Shown piece after piece: positions 1-7,263 of a DNA stretch of 11,286 nucleotides. The stretch comes from Candidatus Omnitrophota bacterium (GTDB lineage Bacteria; Omnitrophota; Gorgyraeia; Gygaellales; Profunditerraquicolaceae): contig JAMWDE010000015.1 in the NCBI GenBank assembly GCA_023818905.1, positions 1-11,286 on the forward strand, in the 5' to 3' direction. Below the pieces are notes generated by a model that was given only the letters and a program-made list of their open reading frames with translations, searched no databases and was not told where the DNA came from. Position numbers and translations under genes: made by a program. Numbering within the stretch: position 1 is the first letter of the stretch; the number at the start of each line of letters is the position of its first letter.

Positions 1-3000
1 CTATTGATTTGTGCGCTGAACCAGGAAGCAACTATATTGGTTTTGTTTCTATATCCAATGCCACTAGGGATATGCAGTTAGCTATTTGGGATGGCACAGA
101 CACCTCACCATTTAATTTTCAATATACCTTCAACAATGCAGATACAAACGCAGCTACCTGGTCAGCCACTACCCAATCTGTAGCCTGTGGCTGGGCAGGT
201 TCAGGAGCAAATCGGCGGGCAGTATTTGTTTACAGAGATGTAGCAGCAACTACCCTGCGCTATTATACCTGGGTAAAATCCAGTACTACTTGGGAACCTT
301 CAGTAGCAGATGCGCCTGCTACCTATTCTCCGCCTATGACCAGCGGAACAAAAAATTTTATCTATATCCAACAAGCGCCTGATGCTTCAGATAAAATCTG
401 GGTGTCAGTGGTAGATTCAAATTCTGACCTCTGGACCTTTACTTATAATGCCTCAAATGGTACAGCTCCAAGTTCCTGGTTGACTATAGATGACGGTAGG
501 TCAGGCAACTATGCAGTGGAGGCAAATCTCACCAGTGCTACCGGCCCTTCAGGAGGCCTGGCCATAACTTCTTTTGACCCTACCCTGGTTGAGTTAATCA
601 GTTTTAAGGCAGAAACCGAAGATGATGAAGCAATAATTAGCTGGCGCACTGCCAGCGAATTACGCACAATAGGATTTCGGCTCTATCGCACATTTAGCCC
701 TGAGGATAGAAATACCTATGAAGAGATTACCACAGGTCTGATTCATAGTCGGGGCAATCCTTATTCTGGTCGTGAATACAGGTACGTGGATAAAGAACCA
801 TTAAAGGAGGTGTACTACATCCTGGAAGAGATTTTAGCTAACGGTAGCACACAGTATCTTAAACCCGTGCGTTTGGACGATAGAAATACATTTTTAGGTA
901 ATGATGATACAGATTCAGATAAGTCCTTTTTGAATAGAGAGGGTAATATTATTCTTGGCGATAGGGTTATCCGTCGTAAACCAAGGTATATATATCCTGT
1001 TGGGAGGATAAGGAATAATCTTAGTGCAGGTTTTAATCCTTTAAAGATAGAGCTAGACCATGAAGGCCTATACCGTATAACATCCCAGGATTTAATCAAC
1101 GCAGGTTGGAATATCTCCGAGCTCAATCCGCGCAGTTTAGCTATATTTAACCAAGGCAGAGAGATCCCTATCTATGTTTCAGGAGAGGATGATAATATTT
1201 TTGATACAGGGGATTTTATTGAGTTTTATGGTCAGAAGAATCTTAGTCGTTATACCTCTAGTAACGTCTATTGGCTGACATCTCTTAAATATAAAGGTCT
1301 AAGGATGAAGCAAGCAGTAAGCGGAAAATTTAATCAAGAATTAATTACTACTTATCAGCATGGCCAGAAGAGGGAAGAGGATGTTTCCTATTATGCTGAA
1401 TTGAAAGGCGATGAGCACTGGTTTTTCGCAGAGGAATTTATCTCTCCGGCAAGCTTTGACTTTCAATTCTATTTAGATCATATTGCCAATCCAAGTACCA
1501 GAACTGCCCTTTTGGAGATAAATCTCCAGGGAGCATCCAGATGGGGTTTTGGAGCAGGTTATAATCTTCAGCGCGCGCTTATATATATAAACAATAATTT
1601 TATAGGCAAGGCAGAGTGGACCCAAGACGTAGAGTTCAGCACGAGTTATCAAATTCCCATAAACTTGCTAAAGGAAGGCAAGAACATCCTTACTATAAAG
1701 GCGCCAGATGAAGAGGGAGGACTTTTACAGTTCTTTCTGCTTAATTGGTTTAAGGTTACCTATCCTAAGAGGTTGGTGGCTGAAGAGAACAGGATTATCT
1801 TTGATAGCGGTGCAACGCAGTATAGGGCGGTTACCTATAAGGTAGAAGGGTTTACTTCCCAATCTATCCGGGGTTTAGTCATAAAGAATGAGAGGGTATT
1901 GCGTCTGCAGAATCTTAACGTAATACGTCAACCCCAGGGAGATTATGCAGTAATATTTGGGGATAATAGTCCAGAAGGAGCGCGTTATATTTTATACGCT
2001 GATACAGAGTTTGATAAACCTCTGGATGTATATCCTGATATACCTTCAAACTTAAGGCAAAAGGCAAATCAGGCAGATTACCTTATCATTACACATGCAA
2101 TTTTTAAAGATGCCTTAAAGCCCCTGGTTGATTTTAGGCGTGGTCAAGGCCTAAGTATTAAAGTAGTGGACGTGGAGGATATATATGACGAATTCAATTA
2201 TGGCATATTTTCCCCTCTGGCAATAAAGGATTTCTTAAGTTACGCCTACCATAATTGGCAGGCGTCTAAGCCGCTTTTTGTTTTGCTGATAGGAGATGCT
2301 ACTTTTGATTATCAGGATTTCTGGCATATCGGAAAGGAAAACCTGGTGCCTGCTTATCTTATACAAAGCCCTGATTTTGGAGAGACGGTTTCAGATAACT
2401 GGTTTGTGGACTTTGATGAGGATACCCTACCTGAGATGTTTATCGGAAGGTTACCAGTTAACAGTACTCAACAGTTAGAAGCTATAATAGATAAGATTAT
2501 CTCCTATGAGAATTCTACACTTTCTCCTTGGACAAAGAAGGTCCTCTTTGTCTCTGATAACGAAAAGCAATTTGAGAATATTTCAGATAGACTATTCAAT
2601 CTGGTTCCTTCTGGATATCAACCCCAGAAGGTATATCTGAGTGTTTTTGGTCCTGATGCCACCAGACAGAGAGTCATTGAGGAAATAAACAAGGGCAGTT
2701 TGGTTTTTAACTATGCGGGACATTCTGGGATAACTCTTCTGGCACAGGAGATGATATTTAGAAACGAGGATATCAGGCAGTTACAAAATACCCTTGCCTA
2801 TCCTTTATTTTTGAGTTTGAATTGTATGACCGGTTATTTTATCTATCCTGAAGGTTTAGATTCTTTAAGTGAAACCCTGCTCAATGCAGACAAAAAAGGT
2901 ATCATCGCAGCCATCTCTCCCAGTGGTTTGTCTTCTCCACCTGAACAGTACGTTTTTATGGAGGGCTTGTATAAGTCTATCTTTGAGACAGGAGATTCTG

Positions 3001-3209
3001 TCTTAGGCGCAGTCCATTTTAAAGCCAAAGGGTATCTTTATAAGAATGCCAGTCTCATAGGTTCAAGCAATAAGGTAAATAATGTTATCAATATATTTAA
3101 TCTCCTAGGCGATCCTGCATTGTTGATAAGAAGACCAGGCGCAAGCACTAATTATTCTCCAGCCTTGATACGCTATCTTCATCGGATTTTGGAACAAAGC
3201 TATGACTGA
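1..3209 (+). CDS. Large secreted protein with C-terminal peptidase C25 (gingipain-type) domain, 5' partial
   Basis: The reading frame is open to the left edge (first whole codon at base 3), so the true start and any signal peptide lie outside the window. About nt 30-540 encodes a Trp- and Tyr-rich, beta-strand-rich region with two or more similar units (near nt 205-300 and 355-480), perhaps part of a beta-propeller. About nt 580-880 matches the FN3-like module often found in secreted proteins (a 'VELISFKAE...SWRTASE...GFRLYR' style pattern). About nt 2070-3150 is the peptidase C25 domain. It carries the presumed catalytic His in YAGHSG (codon 2721-2723) and the Cys in LNCMTG (codon 2823-2825), the dyad spacing and context seen in gingipain relatives, plus the terminal 'LLGDPALLIRRPG' style motif. 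The protein ends about 15 residues after that, so no type IX secretion C-terminal domain is visible. By family it is an extracellular or surface cysteine endopeptidase. The substrate is unknown. The stop overlaps the radical SAM gene by 8 nt, which suggests co-transcription and possible translational coupling. Confidence 0.88.
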   Translation, partial: IDLCAEPGSNYIGFVSISNATRDMQLAIWDGTDTSPFNFQYTFNNADTNAATWSATTQSVACGWAGSGANRRAVFVYRDVAATTLRYYTWVKSSTTWEPSVADAPATYSPPMTSGTKNFIYIQQAPDASDKIWVSVVDSNSDLWTFTYNASNGTAPSSWLTIDDGRSGNYAVEANLTSATGPSGGLAITSFDPTLVELISFKAETEDDEAIISWRTASELRTIGFRLYRTFSPEDRNTYEEITTGLIHSRGNPYSGREYRYVDKEPLKEVYYILEEILANGSTQYLKPVRLDDRNTFLGNDDTDSDKSFLNREGNIILGDRVIRRKPRYIYPVGRIRNNLSAGFNPLKIELDHEGLYRITSQDLINAGWNISELNPRSLAIFNQGREIPIYVSGEDDNIFDTGDFIEFYGQKNLSRYTSSNVYWLTSLKYKGLRMKQAVSGKFNQELITTYQHGQKREEDVSYYAELKGDEHWFFAEEFISPASFDFQFYLDHIANPSTRTALLEINLQGASRWGFGAGYNLQRALIYINNNFIGKAEWTQDVEFSTSYQIPINLLKEGKNILTIKAPDEEGGLLQFFLLNWFKVTYPKRLVAEENRIIFDSGATQYRAVTYKVEGFTSQSIRGLVIKNERVLRLQNLNVIRQPQGDYAVIFGDNSPEGARYILYADTEFDKPLDVYPDIPSNLRQKANQADYLIITHAIFKDALKPLVDFRRGQGLSIKVVDVEDIYDEFNYGIFSPLAIKDFLSYAYHNWQASKPLFVLLIGDATFDYQDFWHIGKENLVPAYLIQSPDFGETVSDNWFVDFDEDTLPEMFIGRLPVNSTQQLEAIIDKIISYENSTLSPWTKKVLFVSDNEKQFENISDRLFNLVPSGYQPQKVYLSVFGPDATRQRVIEEINKGSLVFNYAGHSGITLLAQEMIFRNEDIRQLQNTLAYPLFLSLNCMTGYFIYPEGLDSLSETLLNADKKGIIAAISPSGLSSPPEQYVFMEGLYKSIFETGDSVLGAVHFKAKGYLYKNASLIGSSNKVNNVINIFNLLGDPALLIRRPGASTNYSPALIRYLHRILEQSYD

Positions 3210-4245
3210 GCAGCAAGCCATAAATCTATTTAACCATCTGCTAAATAGGGCAGAAGAAAAAATGATTCCTCTTTGGACCCATCTGGATTTGACCTACCGT
3301 TGTAATCTAAGTTGCATACACTGTTACTGTCAGGGGATCTCAGGCCAACTTTGGGAGAATCGTGGAGAGTTATCCTTTCAGGAGATAAAACAACTTTTGG
3401 ATGATTTGGCAGGATCAGGTGCTTTATACCTTACGCTTTCAGGAGGTGAGGTGTTTTTACGCCGGGATTTTTTTGAGATTGCCTTTTATGCCAAAAAAAA
3501 GAATTTTTGTTTAAGCGTATTTACCAATGGTACGCTTATAGATGAGAATAAAGCCAGAAGGCTTGCTGATCTGTCACCGCTGGCAGTGGAGATGAGTATC
3601 TATGGAGTAACTCCTGAAGTTCACGATAGTATTACTAATCTCGTAGGTTCCTTTGAAAAATTATTGAAGGCAGTTGGGATATTTAAAAAATATGGTCTGA
3701 GAGTTGTACTCAAGACAGTATTTATGAAACCAAATTTTCATCAAGTGCATCAGATAGAGAGATTTGCTTATGATATAGGAACAGATGATTTTCGTTCAAA
3801 TATAGAGATCTCTCCTAAGAATGACGGCTCAAAATTACCCCTGGAATATCAATTAGACACAGAAGAGATGGCATCCATACTTTCTAAGACAGATGAGTCA
3901 GAAGTAGAATATCAGGATAACCCTTTAAGAAAGCCGCTTTGCGCCACAGGCTCATTGGGTTGTTATATCTCACCTTACGGAGACGTGTATCCTTGTATAC
4001 AGCTTTTGATTCCGATGGGAAATATCCGAGAGAAAAGTTTTCAAGAGATATGGCATGCGCCTTCAGAGTTACGTTCACAGCTGTCTCTGCTTAAGACCTA
4101 TGCAGACTTGTTATCCTGTAAGAGTTGTCAGTATGTAAGATACTGCAAAAAATGCCTTGGATTGTCTTACTTAGAGACAAAGGATATGAGGGCTTGCTAT
4201 CCTGCTTTGAGGGATATCTCAAGAATAACCTCTGGGGAATACTGA
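3202..4245 (+). CDS. Radical SAM/SPASM peptide maturase
   Basis: A 347-residue protein of the radical SAM superfamily with a C-terminal SPASM domain, the class that modifies RiPP precursors (for example PqqE and sactipeptide or ranthipeptide enzymes). The 4Fe-4S/SAM motif is C34-x3-C38-x2-C41, followed by the GGE motif at residues 81-83. The SPASM region fits C247-x12-G260-x4-C265, then C306-x2-C309-x5-C315-x2-C318 and C332. The third group is one residue shorter than the usual C-x2-C-x5-C-x3-C. The extra Cys43 and Cys254 are unassigned. The start is ATG at 3202, inside the peptidase stop region (ATGACTGA). There is only a weak upstream GGA, which suggests coupled translation. ATG at 3262, closer to the SAM motif, is an alternative start. 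A precursor gene, an HprK-like kinase and a PqqD protein follow, which supports a peptide-modifying role. The chemistry (thioether, C-C or other link) cannot be read from sequence. Confidence 0.92.
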   Translation: MTEQQAINLFNHLLNRAEEKMIPLWTHLDLTYRCNLSCIHCYCQGISGQLWENRGELSFQEIKQLLDDLAGSGALYLTLSGGEVFLRRDFFEIAFYAKKKNFCLSVFTNGTLIDENKARRLADLSPLAVEMSIYGVTPEVHDSITNLVGSFEKLLKAVGIFKKYGLRVVLKTVFMKPNFHQVHQIERFAYDIGTDDFRSNIEISPKNDGSKLPLEYQLDTEEMASILSKTDESEVEYQDNPLRKPLCATGSLGCYISPYGDVYPCIQLLIPMGNIREKSFQEIWHAPSELRSQLSLLKTYADLLSCKSCQYVRYCKKCLGLSYLETKDMRACYPALRDISRITSGEY

Positions 4246-4266
4246 CAGACCGAAGAACTGAGGCAA

Positions 4267-4295
4267 CCTAATTATCTTCTATAGGTAATTGTAGG
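4267..4295 (+). promoter_or_regulatory. Imperfect RNA hairpin in the leader of the precursor gene
   Basis: CCTAATTATC (4267-4276) can pair with GGTAAT (4284-4289) plus TAGG (4292-4295), leaving a 7-nt loop and a 2-nt TG bulge, including one G-U pair. It lies between the radical SAM stop and the precursor ribosome binding site, and is followed by AT-rich sequence rather than a U-tract. It is therefore not a convincing terminator. It could mark an mRNA processing or stability element that sets the precursor-to-enzyme ratio. The fold was judged by eye. Confidence 0.35.
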
Positions 4296-4308
4296 ATTAT
4301 TAAATATT

Positions 4309-4317
4309 AAGGAGGAG
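4309..4317 (+). promoter_or_regulatory. Strong ribosome binding site of the precursor peptide
   Basis: AAGGAGGAG ends 5 nt before the ATG at 4323, with the core GGAGG 7 nt from the start. It is the best anti-Shine-Dalgarno match in the window, while the neighbouring enzyme genes at 3202 and 4491 have weak sites. This is the expected pattern for a precursor made in excess over its enzymes, and it supports 4323-4481 as a real gene. Confidence 0.75.
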
Positions 4318-4322
4318 CCATT

Positions 4323-4481
4323 ATGTCTAACAAGAAAGATATCTATCAAAAACCAGAGCTTAAGCCAATCAGGATGTTGGAGGTAGGCGCTGCGCTTTGC
4401 TGTCGGGCAACTGCAGGCGCCTGTACCAATACAGTTAGGGCAGCTCAGCCTGGAAAACAGAGAACATCCACTTCTTCATAA
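4323..4481 (+). CDS. Candidate RiPP precursor peptide (52 aa, Cys-containing core, Ser-terminated tail)
   Basis: A short frame from ATG 4323 to TAA 4479-4481 encodes 52 residues. The N-terminal half is charged and leader-like and contains Y8-x2-P11-x-L13 (YQKPEL), the motif recognised by PqqD-type recognition elements in lasso-peptide systems and present in other RiPP leaders. After a hydrophobic stretch (VGAAL, residues 21-25) comes a core-like segment with C26, C27 and C34 (CCRATAGAC), then a basic, Ser/Thr-rich tail ending RTSTSS. The gene sits directly between a radical SAM/SPASM maturase and an HprK-like protein plus a PqqD protein, and has a near-consensus ribosome binding site. The three Cys residues are plausible sites for thioether or other crosslinks, and the terminal Ser is a plausible kinase substrate. 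The leader cleavage point is not evident. It does not end the leader with a clear Gly-Gly. I do not recognise the mature product. Confidence 0.82.
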   Translation: MSNKKDIYQKPELKPIRMLEVGAALCCRATAGACTNTVRAAQPGKQRTSTSS

Positions 4482-4490
4482 TCTTGGTAT

Positions 4491-5291
4491 ATGCCTGAAG
4501 AGCACAGGATCAAATTCAATATAGCTAATATTGTATTTGAGATTACAGGTCTCAGTGAAGAAGCGATATCTGAACTGATGCAGACTTACCCTGTTTTTCT
4601 TACTCGGAGTAAATCAGATTTTAAAATACATCTCAGTATGAAAAGATACCAAAACAAAACGGCTGACTTTCAAAGAGCTATCTTGGGAAGTGATTGCTTG
4701 TATATTCAACAAGAGTATTTTAAGGCGAAAATAAATTTTAAGAAGGCCAAGGTATGGATAGAAGCAAGTCCTGGCTTTGGGATTATGAGCTTCTTGCGGT
4801 TTTTGATTTCGCTGATTGCTCCAGAAAAAAAACAGGGATTCCTACTTCATGCCGCTGCAGTGTCAGATAATAATTATGGGTATGTATTTGTTGGTCCTTC
4901 AGAAAGCGGCAAGACCACGCTTGCTAGGTTATCTAGTAAGGATAAGATTGTCTTAACTGATGAGACTGCCGCTATAGTTAAAACCGATGGAAATTATTAT
5001 GTTTGGTCTACCCCGTTTATTGGTGAATTTGGCCAGGTCAAGCAGAATATGGCCAGTCCTGTAAAGGCAGTCTATTTTATTAAAAAGGATAGTCAATTCA
5101 GGCATCGGCAGTTAGAGAAAGCCGAGGCGGTAAAACTATTTTTGGGCAATGTGATTTTGGGTTTGCAAGACGTAGAGATATTGAATTGCCTATTTGATTT
5201 ATTTGAAAATTTTACCAAAAGGATACCTTGTTATGAGTTTGGCTTTAAACCAGAAGTAGACATCTGGAGGTACATCTATGGATTTACTTAA
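4491..5291 (+). CDS. HPr kinase-like P-loop protein (candidate peptide kinase)
   Basis: A 266-residue protein whose C-terminal half resembles the HPr serine kinase fold: LHAAAV around H120, Walker A GPSESGKTT at 135-143, then the LTDET segment around D157-E158 and a 'STPFIGEFG' block at 173-181. True HprK is about 310 residues with a different N-terminal domain. The first ~110 residues here are unassigned, so this is an HprK-related protein and not the carbon-catabolite regulator. Homologues in some lasso-peptide clusters phosphorylate the C-terminal Ser of their precursor, and other HprK-like proteins travel with PqqD/radical SAM cassettes. The start at ATG 4491 lies 9 nt after the precursor stop with a weak ribosome binding site. 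The end overlaps the PqqD gene by 14 nt. Its substrate is inferred to be the 52-residue peptide. An ATP-dependent chaperone role is the alternative. Confidence 0.83.
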   Translation: MPEEHRIKFNIANIVFEITGLSEEAISELMQTYPVFLTRSKSDFKIHLSMKRYQNKTADFQRAILGSDCLYIQQEYFKAKINFKKAKVWIEASPGFGIMSFLRFLISLIAPEKKQGFLLHAAAVSDNNYGYVFVGPSESGKTTLARLSSKDKIVLTDETAAIVKTDGNYYVWSTPFIGEFGQVKQNMASPVKAVYFIKKDSQFRHRQLEKAEAVKLFLGNVILGLQDVEILNCLFDLFENFTKRIPCYEFGFKPEVDIWRYIYGFT

Positions 5292-5556
5292 TAGCGTGGT
5301 TAGAAGAAATGAAACGGTTGCCTGGAGGTCAATTGACAAAGAGGCTTTGTTGGTCAATCCTCGGGATGGCCTAATATATCCTCTAAACCCTGTGGCTAAG
5401 CGGGTCTGGGAGTTAATTGATGGAAGTAGGACCTGCTCTGAGCTCATAGAGATTGTGGACAGAGAATTTGAAGGCGATAAATCCAATATCCAACAGGATA
5501 TCCTGAGTTTTATAGGGGATTTGATAGATAAGGGTATGGCTATTCTCCAGGATTAA
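5278..5556 (+). CDS. PqqD-family RiPP recognition element
   Basis: A 92-residue stand-alone PqqD-like winged-helix protein. The diagnostic pattern is VAWRSID (14-20), LLVNPRDGLIYPLNPVA (24-40) and VWELIDGSRTCSELI (43-57), followed by an acidic helix at 70-86. Such proteins bind the precursor leader and present it to the modifying enzyme, as PqqD does for PqqE and B1 proteins do in lasso clusters. The leader motif YQKPEL of the peptide at 4323-4481 is the likely ligand. TGGAGG at 5265-5270, 7 nt before the ATG, supports this start, and the gene overlaps the HprK-like gene by 14 nt. Its stop codon overlaps the stop of the opposite-strand permease gene. Confidence 0.92.
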   Translation: MDLLNSVVRRNETVAWRSIDKEALLVNPRDGLIYPLNPVAKRVWELIDGSRTCSELIEIVDREFEGDKSNIQQDILSFIGDLIDKGMAILQD

Positions 5557-6359
5557 TACTGCGCTAAACTTCCCTGTTTTTTTACCTTCTTCAAGGCGTA
5601 TCTGAAGAAGATAAGGCTCAGTGGCAAAAGCAGGATGCAGAAGCAGGAGAGGAAAATTATCTCTTTAATTAGTTGAATTACTGAGTAGCCTCTATACACT
5701 GCCAGTTGAATTGCACGGATAGAATAGGTGATAGGAAAAAATTTCGCCACTATTTGTAACCAGCTCGGCAACACTGTAATTGGAAAATATACCCCTCCTA
5801 ATAATCCTTCCATTTGATTTATCACCCATCCCACAGGATTACCTTGTTTAAAAACCATAATAAAACTTGCCGAGATTATACCTAGACTACTAAAACAGAC
5901 CAGGGTTAGGATGGAGGTCACTACGGTTGAGAATATGTTTATATGACTGAAGTCAATTTTAAACAAGCTTGCTCCTAATATGATATACACTACCATATCC
6001 ATGGTTGCCATAAATAAATTCCATAGTGCCATTGAGAATAACACAACAGAACCAGAAGTAGGAGTCATCAGTATTGCTTCTAAAGTTCCCATATATTGCT
6101 CTGCGCGTATACGCGCAGAAAAAGAACCCAAACCCACGCCGATATAATTAAAGAAAGCCATACCTAATAACACATAGGAAAAGTAACTTACGCCAAACTC
6201 CTGAAGGTGTCCAACGATTCTTTGTCCGAATAATTTATCAATAAAAAAATAACCCAACACACTCATCAGGACACCGAACATGTTAAACAGAAAAGATATG
6301 CGGTAGCTCGATTCTAGTAAAAAGTCCTTTTTCAAGAATGCCACTGATTTTCTAAGCAT
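5553..6359 (-). CDS. ABC-2 type exporter permease
   Basis: A 268-residue integral membrane protein with about six hydrophobic segments (near residues 22-41, 58-78, 104-129, 143-170, 176-195 and 228-253). It has the ABC-2 hallmarks GTLEAILMTP at 91-100 (the cytoplasmic coupling segment) and 'YFPITVLPSWLQ...FFPITY' near 191-212. It forms the membrane part of an exporter with the ATPase encoded just upstream, whose stop overlaps this start by 8 nt (ATGCTTAG). The cargo is not evident. Candidates are the modified peptide of the adjacent cassette, or a lipid or glycan from the polysaccharide cluster on the other side. The gene converges on the PqqD gene with a 4-nt overlap (5553-5556), so any terminator must lie within opposite-strand coding sequence. 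Confidence 0.9.
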   Translation of the reverse strand: MLRKSVAFLKKDFLLESSYRISFLFNMFGVLMSVLGYFFIDKLFGQRIVGHLQEFGVSYFSYVLLGMAFFNYIGVGLGSFSARIRAEQYMGTLEAILMTPTSGSVVLFSMALWNLFMATMDMVVYIILGASLFKIDFSHINIFSTVVTSILTLVCFSSLGIISASFIMVFKQGNPVGWVINQMEGLLGGVYFPITVLPSWLQIVAKFFPITYSIRAIQLAVYRGYSVIQLIKEIIFLSCFCILLLPLSLIFFRYALKKVKKQGSLAQY

Positions 6360-7155
6360 AGTATTGTTCTTGTTGGGTTATCCTTAAGAAAATCTCACCT
6401 AAGGTGGCTTGCGGCTTGGCAACCACCCTTCTTAATTCCTGTAGCGTGCCTAAGGCAAGGAGTTTTCCCTTGTGTAGTATCATAAAGGAATCCGCAAAAT
6501 CCAATGCCTCATCCAGATTATGGGTAGCAAAGATAACTGTTTTACCTTGTTGTTTTATTATTTTTTCTTTTATAAAATCTCTTAATCTTAATGCAGTGGC
6601 GTAATCCAGGCTTTTGGTAGGTTCATCCAAAAGCAGAATCTGTGGGTTATGGATTAGGGCGCGCATCAGGACGAATTTTTTCTGCATACCTGTAGAGTAT
6701 TCCCCAAAACGCCTATCTTGATAATCTACCCCAAACAGATCCATCAACTCATCTATCCTTGATTTTGTTTGTTTTTTGTTTAATCCGTATAGCGAGGAGA
6801 AGAATTCTAAATTTTGTCTACCGCTCAACCTCCAGTAGAAACTGCGCTCAGATGAGGAGACCAAGCCAACCAAAGATTTAATCTTTTCATCATCTCTGCC
6901 TACCAAATAACCTGCTACCTGAATTTTTCCCTTATCCGGTAGAATTAAGGTAGCAATTATCTTAAGCAGAGTGGTTTTGCCCGCTCCATTTAAACCAAGT
7001 ATCCCTAATGTATTACCACCAGATACGCTAAAGTTGATATCTTGAAGCGCGCAGGTAGGCTCTTTATGTTTAAAATCCAATTTTAAGATTCTCTTAAAAG
7101 AAATGGGAGTAAAAAAATACTTAGATAGATTATGCACTTCTATGAGAGGAGGCAT
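6352..7155 (-). CDS. ABC exporter ATP-binding protein
   Basis: A 267-residue nucleotide-binding subunit counted from the ATG at 7155. Walker A is GLNGAGKTT (54-62), the signature is YSTGMQKK (143-150), Walker B is LLLDEP (164-169) and the switch His is H202 in ATHNLDEA. The non-canonical signature YSTGM is usual for ABC-2 drug, peptide or glycan exporters. The Q-loop region reads VSSSERSFYWRL with no Gln at the expected position. The frame stays open to 7245, but the extra 30 residues are low-complexity and AT-rich, and the protein family starts near 'IEVHNLSK', so 7155 is preferred. There is no clear ribosome binding site before it. It energises the permease at 5553-6359. Cargo is unknown. 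Confidence 0.9.
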   Translation of the reverse strand: MPPLIEVHNLSKYFFTPISFKRILKLDFKHKEPTCALQDINFSVSGGNTLGILGLNGAGKTTLLKIIATLILPDKGKIQVAGYLVGRDDEKIKSLVGLVSSSERSFYWRLSGRQNLEFFSSLYGLNKKQTKSRIDELMDLFGVDYQDRRFGEYSTGMQKKFVLMRALIHNPQILLLDEPTKSLDYATALRLRDFIKEKIIKQQGKTVIFATHNLDEALDFADSFMILHKGKLLALGTLQELRRVVAKPQATLGEIFLRITQQEQYYA

Positions 7156-7162
7156 GGTTAGA

Positions 7163-7191
7163 AGTTTAACAGAAAACCCTTTTACCGTCAA
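7163..7191 (-). promoter_or_regulatory. Candidate promoter of the ABC exporter operon
   Basis: On the minus strand TTGACG (7191-7186) and TAAACT (7168-7163) are separated by 17 nt, a fair match to a sigma-70-type promoter (5 of 6 and 4 of 6 bases). Transcription would start at or very near the ATG at 7155, giving a leaderless or nearly leaderless message. That agrees with the absence of a ribosome binding site. AT-rich sequence makes chance matches common. Confidence 0.35.
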
Positions 7192-7230
7192 ATCAAAAAT
7201 TTCAACATAAAGTGTAATATAATATATAAT

Positions 7231-7263
7231 AGATAATAGATACATCTATTAGATAGACAGATA
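7231..7263. repeat. AGATA repeat cluster with small palindrome in the divergent intergenic region
   Basis: AGATA occurs at 7231, 7238, 7251 and 7259 on the plus strand. The 11-bp perfect inverted repeat ATCTATTAGAT lies at 7244-7254. The cluster lies between divergent transcription units, upstream of both promoter candidates, where an operator or activator site would fit. It could also be chance in AT-rich DNA. Confidence 0.3.

Follow-up and report, generated by a model that had tools for sequence, protein, structure and literature searches.

A radical SAM, HprK-like kinase and PqqD cassette with a conserved cysteine-containing peptide in Omnitrophota: a candidate pathway for a cross-linked and phosphorylated RiPP

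Introduction

Among ribosomally synthesised and post-translationally modified peptides (RiPPs), a discrete RiPP recognition element (RRE) and an HprK-like kinase occur together in the clusters of phosphorylated lasso peptides and in those of the linear polyphosphorylated peptides (LPPs). Here we analyse an 11,286-bp stretch of DNA from a Candidatus Omnitrophota bacterium (the window, which is an entire contig of a 1.1-Mb, 65% complete metagenome-assembled genome) that encodes a radical S-adenosylmethionine (SAM)/SPASM enzyme, a 52-residue cysteine-containing peptide, an HprK-like kinase and a PqqD protein. We consider it probable that this cassette makes a RiPP that is cross-linked at cysteine by the radical SAM enzyme and phosphorylated on its C-terminal serine, within a polysaccharide locus.

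The closest described systems each share part of this set. Lasso kinases, according to the accessible text of PMC9266682, modify the C-terminal residue of their substrate, and a serine in that position is extremely conserved among lasso clusters that encode a kinase. For most discrete lasso RREs, the leader that is bound has the form [Y/W]xxPx[L/V/I/A/F/Y], as stated in the accessible part of PMC13381572 (Nat Commun 2026). The LPPs are described there as linear and as restricted to Bacillota, and the authors call their biological roles unknown; the terms 'radical SAM', 'rSAM' and 'SPASM' have no occurrence in the main text of that paper. SkfB, for its part, is reported in the sources open to us as a sactisynthase that forms Cys-alpha-carbon thioethers. 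One paper that deals with radical SAM enzymes, HPr kinase and precursor peptides mentions, in its accessible text, an HPr kinase in lasso clusters only.

Results

A preliminary description of the window had placed the four genes between positions 3202 and 5556, all on the forward strand, and both the gene set and the coordinates proved exact. The cassette consists of the following features.

3202..4245, + strand: radical SAM/SPASM peptide maturase, 347 aa (Pfam Radical_SAM 2.6e-24, SPASM 2e-11)
4309..4317, + strand: Shine-Dalgarno sequence AAGGAGGAG of the precursor gene (AAGGAGGAG-N5-ATG is unique within the window)
4323..4481, + strand: precursor peptide, 52 aa with 3 Cys (leader YQKPEL, core CC-x6-C, C-terminal Ser)
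4491..5291, + strand: HprK/PEPCK-superfamily kinase, 266 aa (conserved residues and predicted fold)
5278..5556, + strand: PqqD-type discrete RRE, 92 aa (Pfam PqqD 4.8e-15)

The radical SAM gene is separated from the peptide gene by 77 nucleotides and the peptide gene from the kinase gene by 9, while the kinase and PqqD genes overlap by 14. The combination of AAGGAGGAG, five nucleotides and ATG at the start of the peptide arose in none of 200 shuffles. A small frame with a [YW]xxP leader and cysteine lies beside the cassette in 15 of the first 20 neighbourhoods, and across ten aligned peptides Y8, P11, E20, C26, C27, C34 and S52 are invariant. When a profile of these ten was run against 384 Omnitrophota genomes, all 12 strong matches (E<=2.4e-15) fell at cassette loci; they comprise the ten members themselves and two new peptides (in genomes G189 and G162) on contig fragments that also bear a radical SAM and an NTP_transf_5 gene. 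Another 24 matches were weaker, and seven of these lie, by their coordinates, no more than about 1.5 kb from a kinase match. With three further Omnitrophota peptides added to the ten (L085, L086 and L105), all 13 keep the YxxPx[LVI] leader, the glutamate, the cysteine pair, the third cysteine and the C-terminal serine, and the differences at codon positions one, two and three (0.46, 0.41 and 0.69 over 49 columns of the 13 members) are largest at the third. The Shine-Dalgarno sequence, the profile matches at cassettes, the codon-position pattern and the recurrence at loci rule out a chance open reading frame (ORF). The preliminary description had put this peptide forward as an overlooked precursor and had proposed a neighbourhood search and peptide alignment as a check, with the lack of a homologous frame in relatives as the refuting outcome; the frame is real, and homologues with conserved leader and cysteine positions stand at the cassettes of relatives. 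The window precursor has no match in Pfam or NCBIfam, and scans of sets of 15 and 32 precursors gave no match in either database above chance level. An acidobacterial class of two-cysteine peptides, of the form ...L[TS]CGK...C...S, was seen at four loci (L113, L117, L121 and L133) upstream of the kinase gene and not beside the radical SAM gene.

The radical SAM enzyme carries the cluster motif CNLSCIHC (CxxxCxxC), and its SPASM cysteines 247, 265, 306, 309, 315 and 318 are invariant in 11 aligned relatives, with Cys332 nearly so. SkfB is its top match both in a profile search of the PDB (7.2e-32) and, as a RiPP maturase, in a Foldseek search with the AlphaFold2 model (9.6e-16; predicted local distance difference test score, pLDDT, 94.4). 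For the kinase, the label HprK-like holds at the level of the fold, in that the model (pLDDT 93.7) matches PEPCK (4.8e-9) and HprK/P (5.8e-4) and belongs to the HprK/PEPCK superfamily; matches to family models are weak (Pfam PEPCK_ATP 0.01, NCBIfam ScmC 7e-8). By analogy, the catalytic residues would be His120, Lys141, Asp157 and Glu158. His120 and Lys141 are present in all 72 aligned kinases and Asp157 in 68 (glutamate in the remaining four); the residue that follows is glutamate in 44, the window's kinase included, and aspartate in 28. Among solved chains, the best match of the PqqD family is TbiB1, a lasso RRE (3.7e-14); next comes 9x8z, a 'PqqD family protein' (5.1e-12), and the family is less close to the PqqD of PQQ biosynthesis (5e-7) and to other lasso chaperones (8e-7 and 3e-5).

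A kinase search matched 106 of the 384 Omnitrophota genomes. We assembled 114 loci, namely the window, 38 region loci and the best 80 loci of named genomes (found by a scan with a radical SAM alignment, which gives a lower bound), minus five duplicates, and labelled their genes with our own profiles, a few labels falling on over-long open frames. Radical SAM and HprK labels coincide at 88 of the 114 loci, with a PqqD label as well at 84, and the layout of one maturase and one kinase suggested for the window holds widely: 76 of the 88 loci have exactly one radical SAM, one HprK-like and one PqqD label. The commonest gene order is HprK-PqqD-radical SAM (50 of 88), followed by PqqD-radical SAM-HprK (18), and the order found in the window, radical SAM-HprK-PqqD, is rarer (4). 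Judged by record titles, the radical SAM and HprK set extends over more than ten phyla and is found in Omnitrophota, Acidobacteria, Nitrospirae, Rokubacteria, Elusimicrobia, Lentisphaerae, Verrucomicrobia, Kiritimatiellia, Aminicenantes, Chloroflexi, WOR-3, Binatia, Myxococcales and deltaproteobacterial lineages. Among the 84 loci with all three labels, a signal-peptidase-like label occurs at 57 (54 of plausible length), NTP_transf_5 at 49, an ABC permease at 26, a C25 peptidase at 23 and Wzc or Wzy at 16, counts that are rough because of short stretches and contig ends. The set at L035 includes a methyltransferase gene in addition to the signal-peptidase-like gene and NTP_transf_5.

To locate precursors across the 88 loci with radical SAM and HprK labels, a peptide was picked by a fixed rule ([YW]xxP) and without hand curation. 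A peptide was obtained at 66 loci, and 46 of the 66 end in serine; among 2,099 small control ORFs from these stretches the share is 10.8% (binomial 1.6e-29, a value that overstates independence, the loci being related). The uncurated count includes wrong picks, for example at L049, L114, L120, L125, L129, L130, L131 and L174. It supersedes a manually compiled list, with 44 serine-ending peptides among 56, from which duplicates and presumed spurious ORFs had been left out; that list had also omitted the serine-ending peptides of L146, L111, L123, L153 and L164 and the methionine-ending peptide of L094. We take the terminal serine as a clue to the target of the kinase and not as proof.

How does this cassette compare with the described systems? 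As presented in the accessible text of PMC9266682, phosphorylated lasso clusters of the paeninodin and pseudomycoidin type share with it a B1-type RRE, an HprK-like kinase and a conserved C-terminal serine, and have an NTP-transferase gene in common with the window's relatives. The lasso pattern extends to recognition, with TbiB1 as the top RRE match and a [Y/W]xxPx[L/V/I] leader in all 13 aligned peptides. A lasso peptide is nevertheless rejected on the cyclase and the leader peptidase: Asn_synthase, the family of the lasso macrolactam synthetase, has matches in all 12 genomes tested and none on a cassette contig, and PF13471, the family of the B2 transglutaminase-like leader peptidase, has no match in the 12 genomes (a control search matched 2 of 14 named genomes); in their place stands the radical SAM enzyme. 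Neither lasso marker is among the 25 Pfam families listed for a random 150 of the 291 unlabelled flanking ORFs, in which Poly_export, a polysaccharide-export family, is the most frequent (8).

With the LPP clusters, as far as their published description was accessible, the cassette shares a discrete RRE, an HprK-like kinase, a YxxP leader and a polysaccharide-locus setting, and the window's relatives share in addition an archaeal-type signal peptidase and an NTP transferase. The LPP core set is without a radical SAM enzyme, whereas the window cassette has a radical SAM/SPASM enzyme and a cysteine-bearing core, and its relatives sometimes a C25 peptidase. The extended LPP leader YxxPxVLxHQxIxFETxxS is not found here, only YxxPx[hydrophobic] and a similarly placed glutamate being in common by eye, and where LPP clusters have an MsbA-like transporter, the window contig has an ABC-2 permease and ATPase pair instead. 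Two other Omnitrophota loci, L101 and L102, have HprK, PqqD, signal-peptidase-like and NTP_transf_5 genes together with cysteine-free YxxP peptides and no radical SAM label; by gene content they appear to be LPP-like clusters outside Bacillota. Sactipeptides of the SkfB type share the SPASM enzyme nearest SkfB and the cysteine-bearing core, and differ in that the window has a discrete lasso-type RRE and a kinase.

On the features tested, leader recognition and kinase are like those of phosphorylated lasso peptides and LPPs, the maturase is like that of sactipeptides, and the cassette is a full member of none. The accessory set of the radical SAM and HprK loci is that of the LPP and paeninodin clusters. 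The four genes do not form a stand-alone layout: since relatives often add a signal-peptidase-like gene and NTP_transf_5, and sometimes C25, a chassis of the LPP/paeninodin type fitted with a radical SAM maturase is the better description of the cassette.

The four genes of the cassette are present as first described, while a C25 peptidase gene that belongs to the set had been overlooked. The remaining genes of the window are as follows.

9..3209, + strand: C25 peptidase of the PorU/gingipain clan, truncated at its 5' end by the contig edge (Pfam C25 2.6e-90)
5553..6359, - strand: ABC-2 permease, convergent with the cassette (domain match)
6352..7245, - strand: ABC ATPase, partner of the permease (domain match)
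from 7387: Wzc-like gene, beyond the ABC-2 permease/ATPase pair
from 9619: Wzy/O-antigen-ligase-like gene, beyond the Wzc-like gene

The C25 gene overlaps the start of the radical SAM gene by 8 nucleotides at its 3' end and is the sole C25 match in its own, 65% complete genome. C25 occurs in 27 of the 384 Omnitrophota genomes; 7 of the 38 matches listed adjoin a kinase match, and all seven are among the best ten. Three of the 12 genomes with the window-type peptide have C25, each as a single match at the cassette. Across the 88 loci, a C25 gene lies within 300 nucleotides on the same strand at 18 and a convergent permease is present at 21; cassette-linked C25 recurs in several phyla. By motif, the His/Cys dyad is present in 19 of 22 C25 proteins, that of the window among them, and several complete ones begin, by eye, with signal-peptide-like segments. 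The window's genome also holds two NTP_transf_5 genes on other contigs, L185 (G000:C139) and L186 (G000:C158). G000:C139 ends, beside its NTP_transf_5 gene, inside an ORF that has a signal-peptide-like start and matches part of the C25 profile. A placement of this NTP_transf_5 gene directly upstream of the window is unproven, as the two contigs share no exact end-to-start match of at least 12 nucleotides and the profile ranges overlap.

Discussion

The gene anatomy and the conservation of the peptide, the catalytic residues and the neighbourhood are observed; each reaction, site and step order in the model that we infer from them is conditional. We propose that the PqqD protein, as a lasso-type RRE, would grip the YxxPxL leader of the 52-residue precursor and present it to the two enzymes. 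The radical SAM/SPASM enzyme would introduce at least one radical-derived cross-link at the cysteines conserved in the core, with a thioether of the sactionine type as the likeliest form, and the HprK-like kinase would phosphorylate the C-terminal serine, by analogy with PadeK, ThcoK and SyanK acting on lasso precursors. In relatives, the archaeal-type signal-peptidase-like protein would then cut off the leader and the NTP_transf_5 protein may decorate the phosphoserine, while in the window the C25 peptidase may carry out processing, perhaps extracellularly. A linked ABC system would probably serve for export, and the setting among polysaccharide genes points to a product at the cell surface.

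Several observations weigh against this model. Twenty of the 66 picked peptides lack a terminal serine, and while some of these are wrong picks, others appear genuine (for example those of L050, L093, L119, L134 and L145); at 22 of the 88 loci no peptide was obtained at all. At loci without HprK, three peptides are plausible by eye, and two of them end in serine (L155, whose contig stops inside the locus, and L159), the third (L136) ending in glycine. A strict dependence of the terminal serine on the kinase was considered and dropped, as three peptides are too few and two that end in serine speak, on their face, against such a tie. The window's kinase has glutamate at the fourth catalytic site, whereas the lasso kinases carry His-Lys-Asp-Asp (PMC9266682, accessible text). 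The window's 11.3-kb contig, truncated at the C25 gene, carries neither a signal peptidase nor an NTP_transf_5 gene, and the 65% complete genome to which it belongs gave no signal-peptidase match with PF00717 or with the protein of L035, the latter search being without a positive control.

For the kinase, we regard a function other than phosphorylation of the C-terminal serine as rather unlikely. Under this alternative, the kinase would act on an internal serine or threonine as in the LPPs, on another protein, or in regulation. It gains from LppK, the kinase of the LPPs as the nearest described family, which, as given in the accessible part of PMC13381572, phosphorylates Ser 3 of the core and not the C-terminus; from PEPCK ranking above HprK in the fold search; from a core rich in serine and threonine; and from the serine-ending peptides at loci without HprK. 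It is opposed by the enrichment of terminal serine at kinase loci and by the position of the gene between precursor and RRE, and C-terminal phosphorylation remains the reading that we prefer.

We also consider it unlikely that the radical SAM product is something other than a thioether, such as an epimerised residue or a cysteine-independent C-C bond, with the cysteines binding metal or forming disulfides later. The Foldseek matches of the model include the epimerase EpeE as well as PqqE and SuiB, and SPASM homology does not tell the type of reaction. The cysteines are, on the other hand, among the most conserved residues of the core, and of the solved enzymes SkfB comes closest in sequence as well as in predicted fold.

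That the cassette is a SynChlorMet-type system minus one radical SAM gene seems improbable. SynChlorMet (NCBIfam TIGR04248-04251, compared here by model names alone) likewise combines HprK-like, PqqD and radical SAM/SPASM components, and the window's proteins give weak matches to ScmC, ScmD and ScmE; it has two radical SAM models (ScmE and ScmF) where the window cassette has one radical SAM gene. Against the curated cut-offs for ScmC, ScmD, ScmE and ScmF, the window proteins reach 32 of 125, 49 of 100, 101 of 400 and 70 of 400 bits, all below, the top model for the radical SAM enzyme is not an Scm model, and 81 of the 88 loci have a single radical SAM label. Membership was rejected on the cut-offs and the number of radical SAM genes, and the parallel drawn in the preliminary description stands as one to a relative with like components and not to the same system. 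A relative with two radical SAM genes does exist at L094 (1044-6387), where the best models are ScmE and ScmF (228 and 303 of 400 bits, below cut-off); with its 99-residue peptide containing several cysteines, it is a SynChlorMet-like cluster. Finally, a structural or regulatory role for the small ORF, with the enzymes acting elsewhere, is very improbable: the leader motif, the cysteines and the linkage to RRE and radical SAM genes recur over many phyla.

Judged from the genes, the set would join radical SAM cross-linking and HprK-type phosphorylation under one lasso-type RRE. In the searchable literature, outside which most subscription papers lie, we found no joint description of these and none of the combination of radical SAM, HprK-like and PqqD genes, and the accessible parts of two papers on Omnitrophota RiPPs (PMC9902471, PMC11123730) do not describe the cassette; within that scope, the suggestion of an uncharacterised and possibly new class stands. 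The cassette is widespread, it bears on why polysaccharide loci harbour phosphorylated RiPPs, and the idea is readily testable by co-expression.

What might the product do at the cell surface? We speculate, as a long shot, that it is a peptide-glycan linker, in which a cross-linked peptide whose C-terminal phosphoserine is glycosylated via NTP_transf_5 would serve as primer or anchor of a Wzc/Wzy surface polysaccharide, with C25 as a PorU-like transpeptidase or processing protease. If true, a widespread RiPP class would prime or attach extracellular polysaccharide. Apart from this scheme, the C25 peptidase might process or anchor the product extracellularly. As a plain substitute for the signal peptidase it finds no support, given that L047 and L053, among others, carry both. 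For all eight signal-peptidase-like proteins tested, the archaeal-type signal peptidase I model ranks first, in four above the cut-off. At L038 (5862-7121), an archaeal-type signal peptidase domain (residues 22-105) is fused to a kinase (ScmC-like, residues 264-405).

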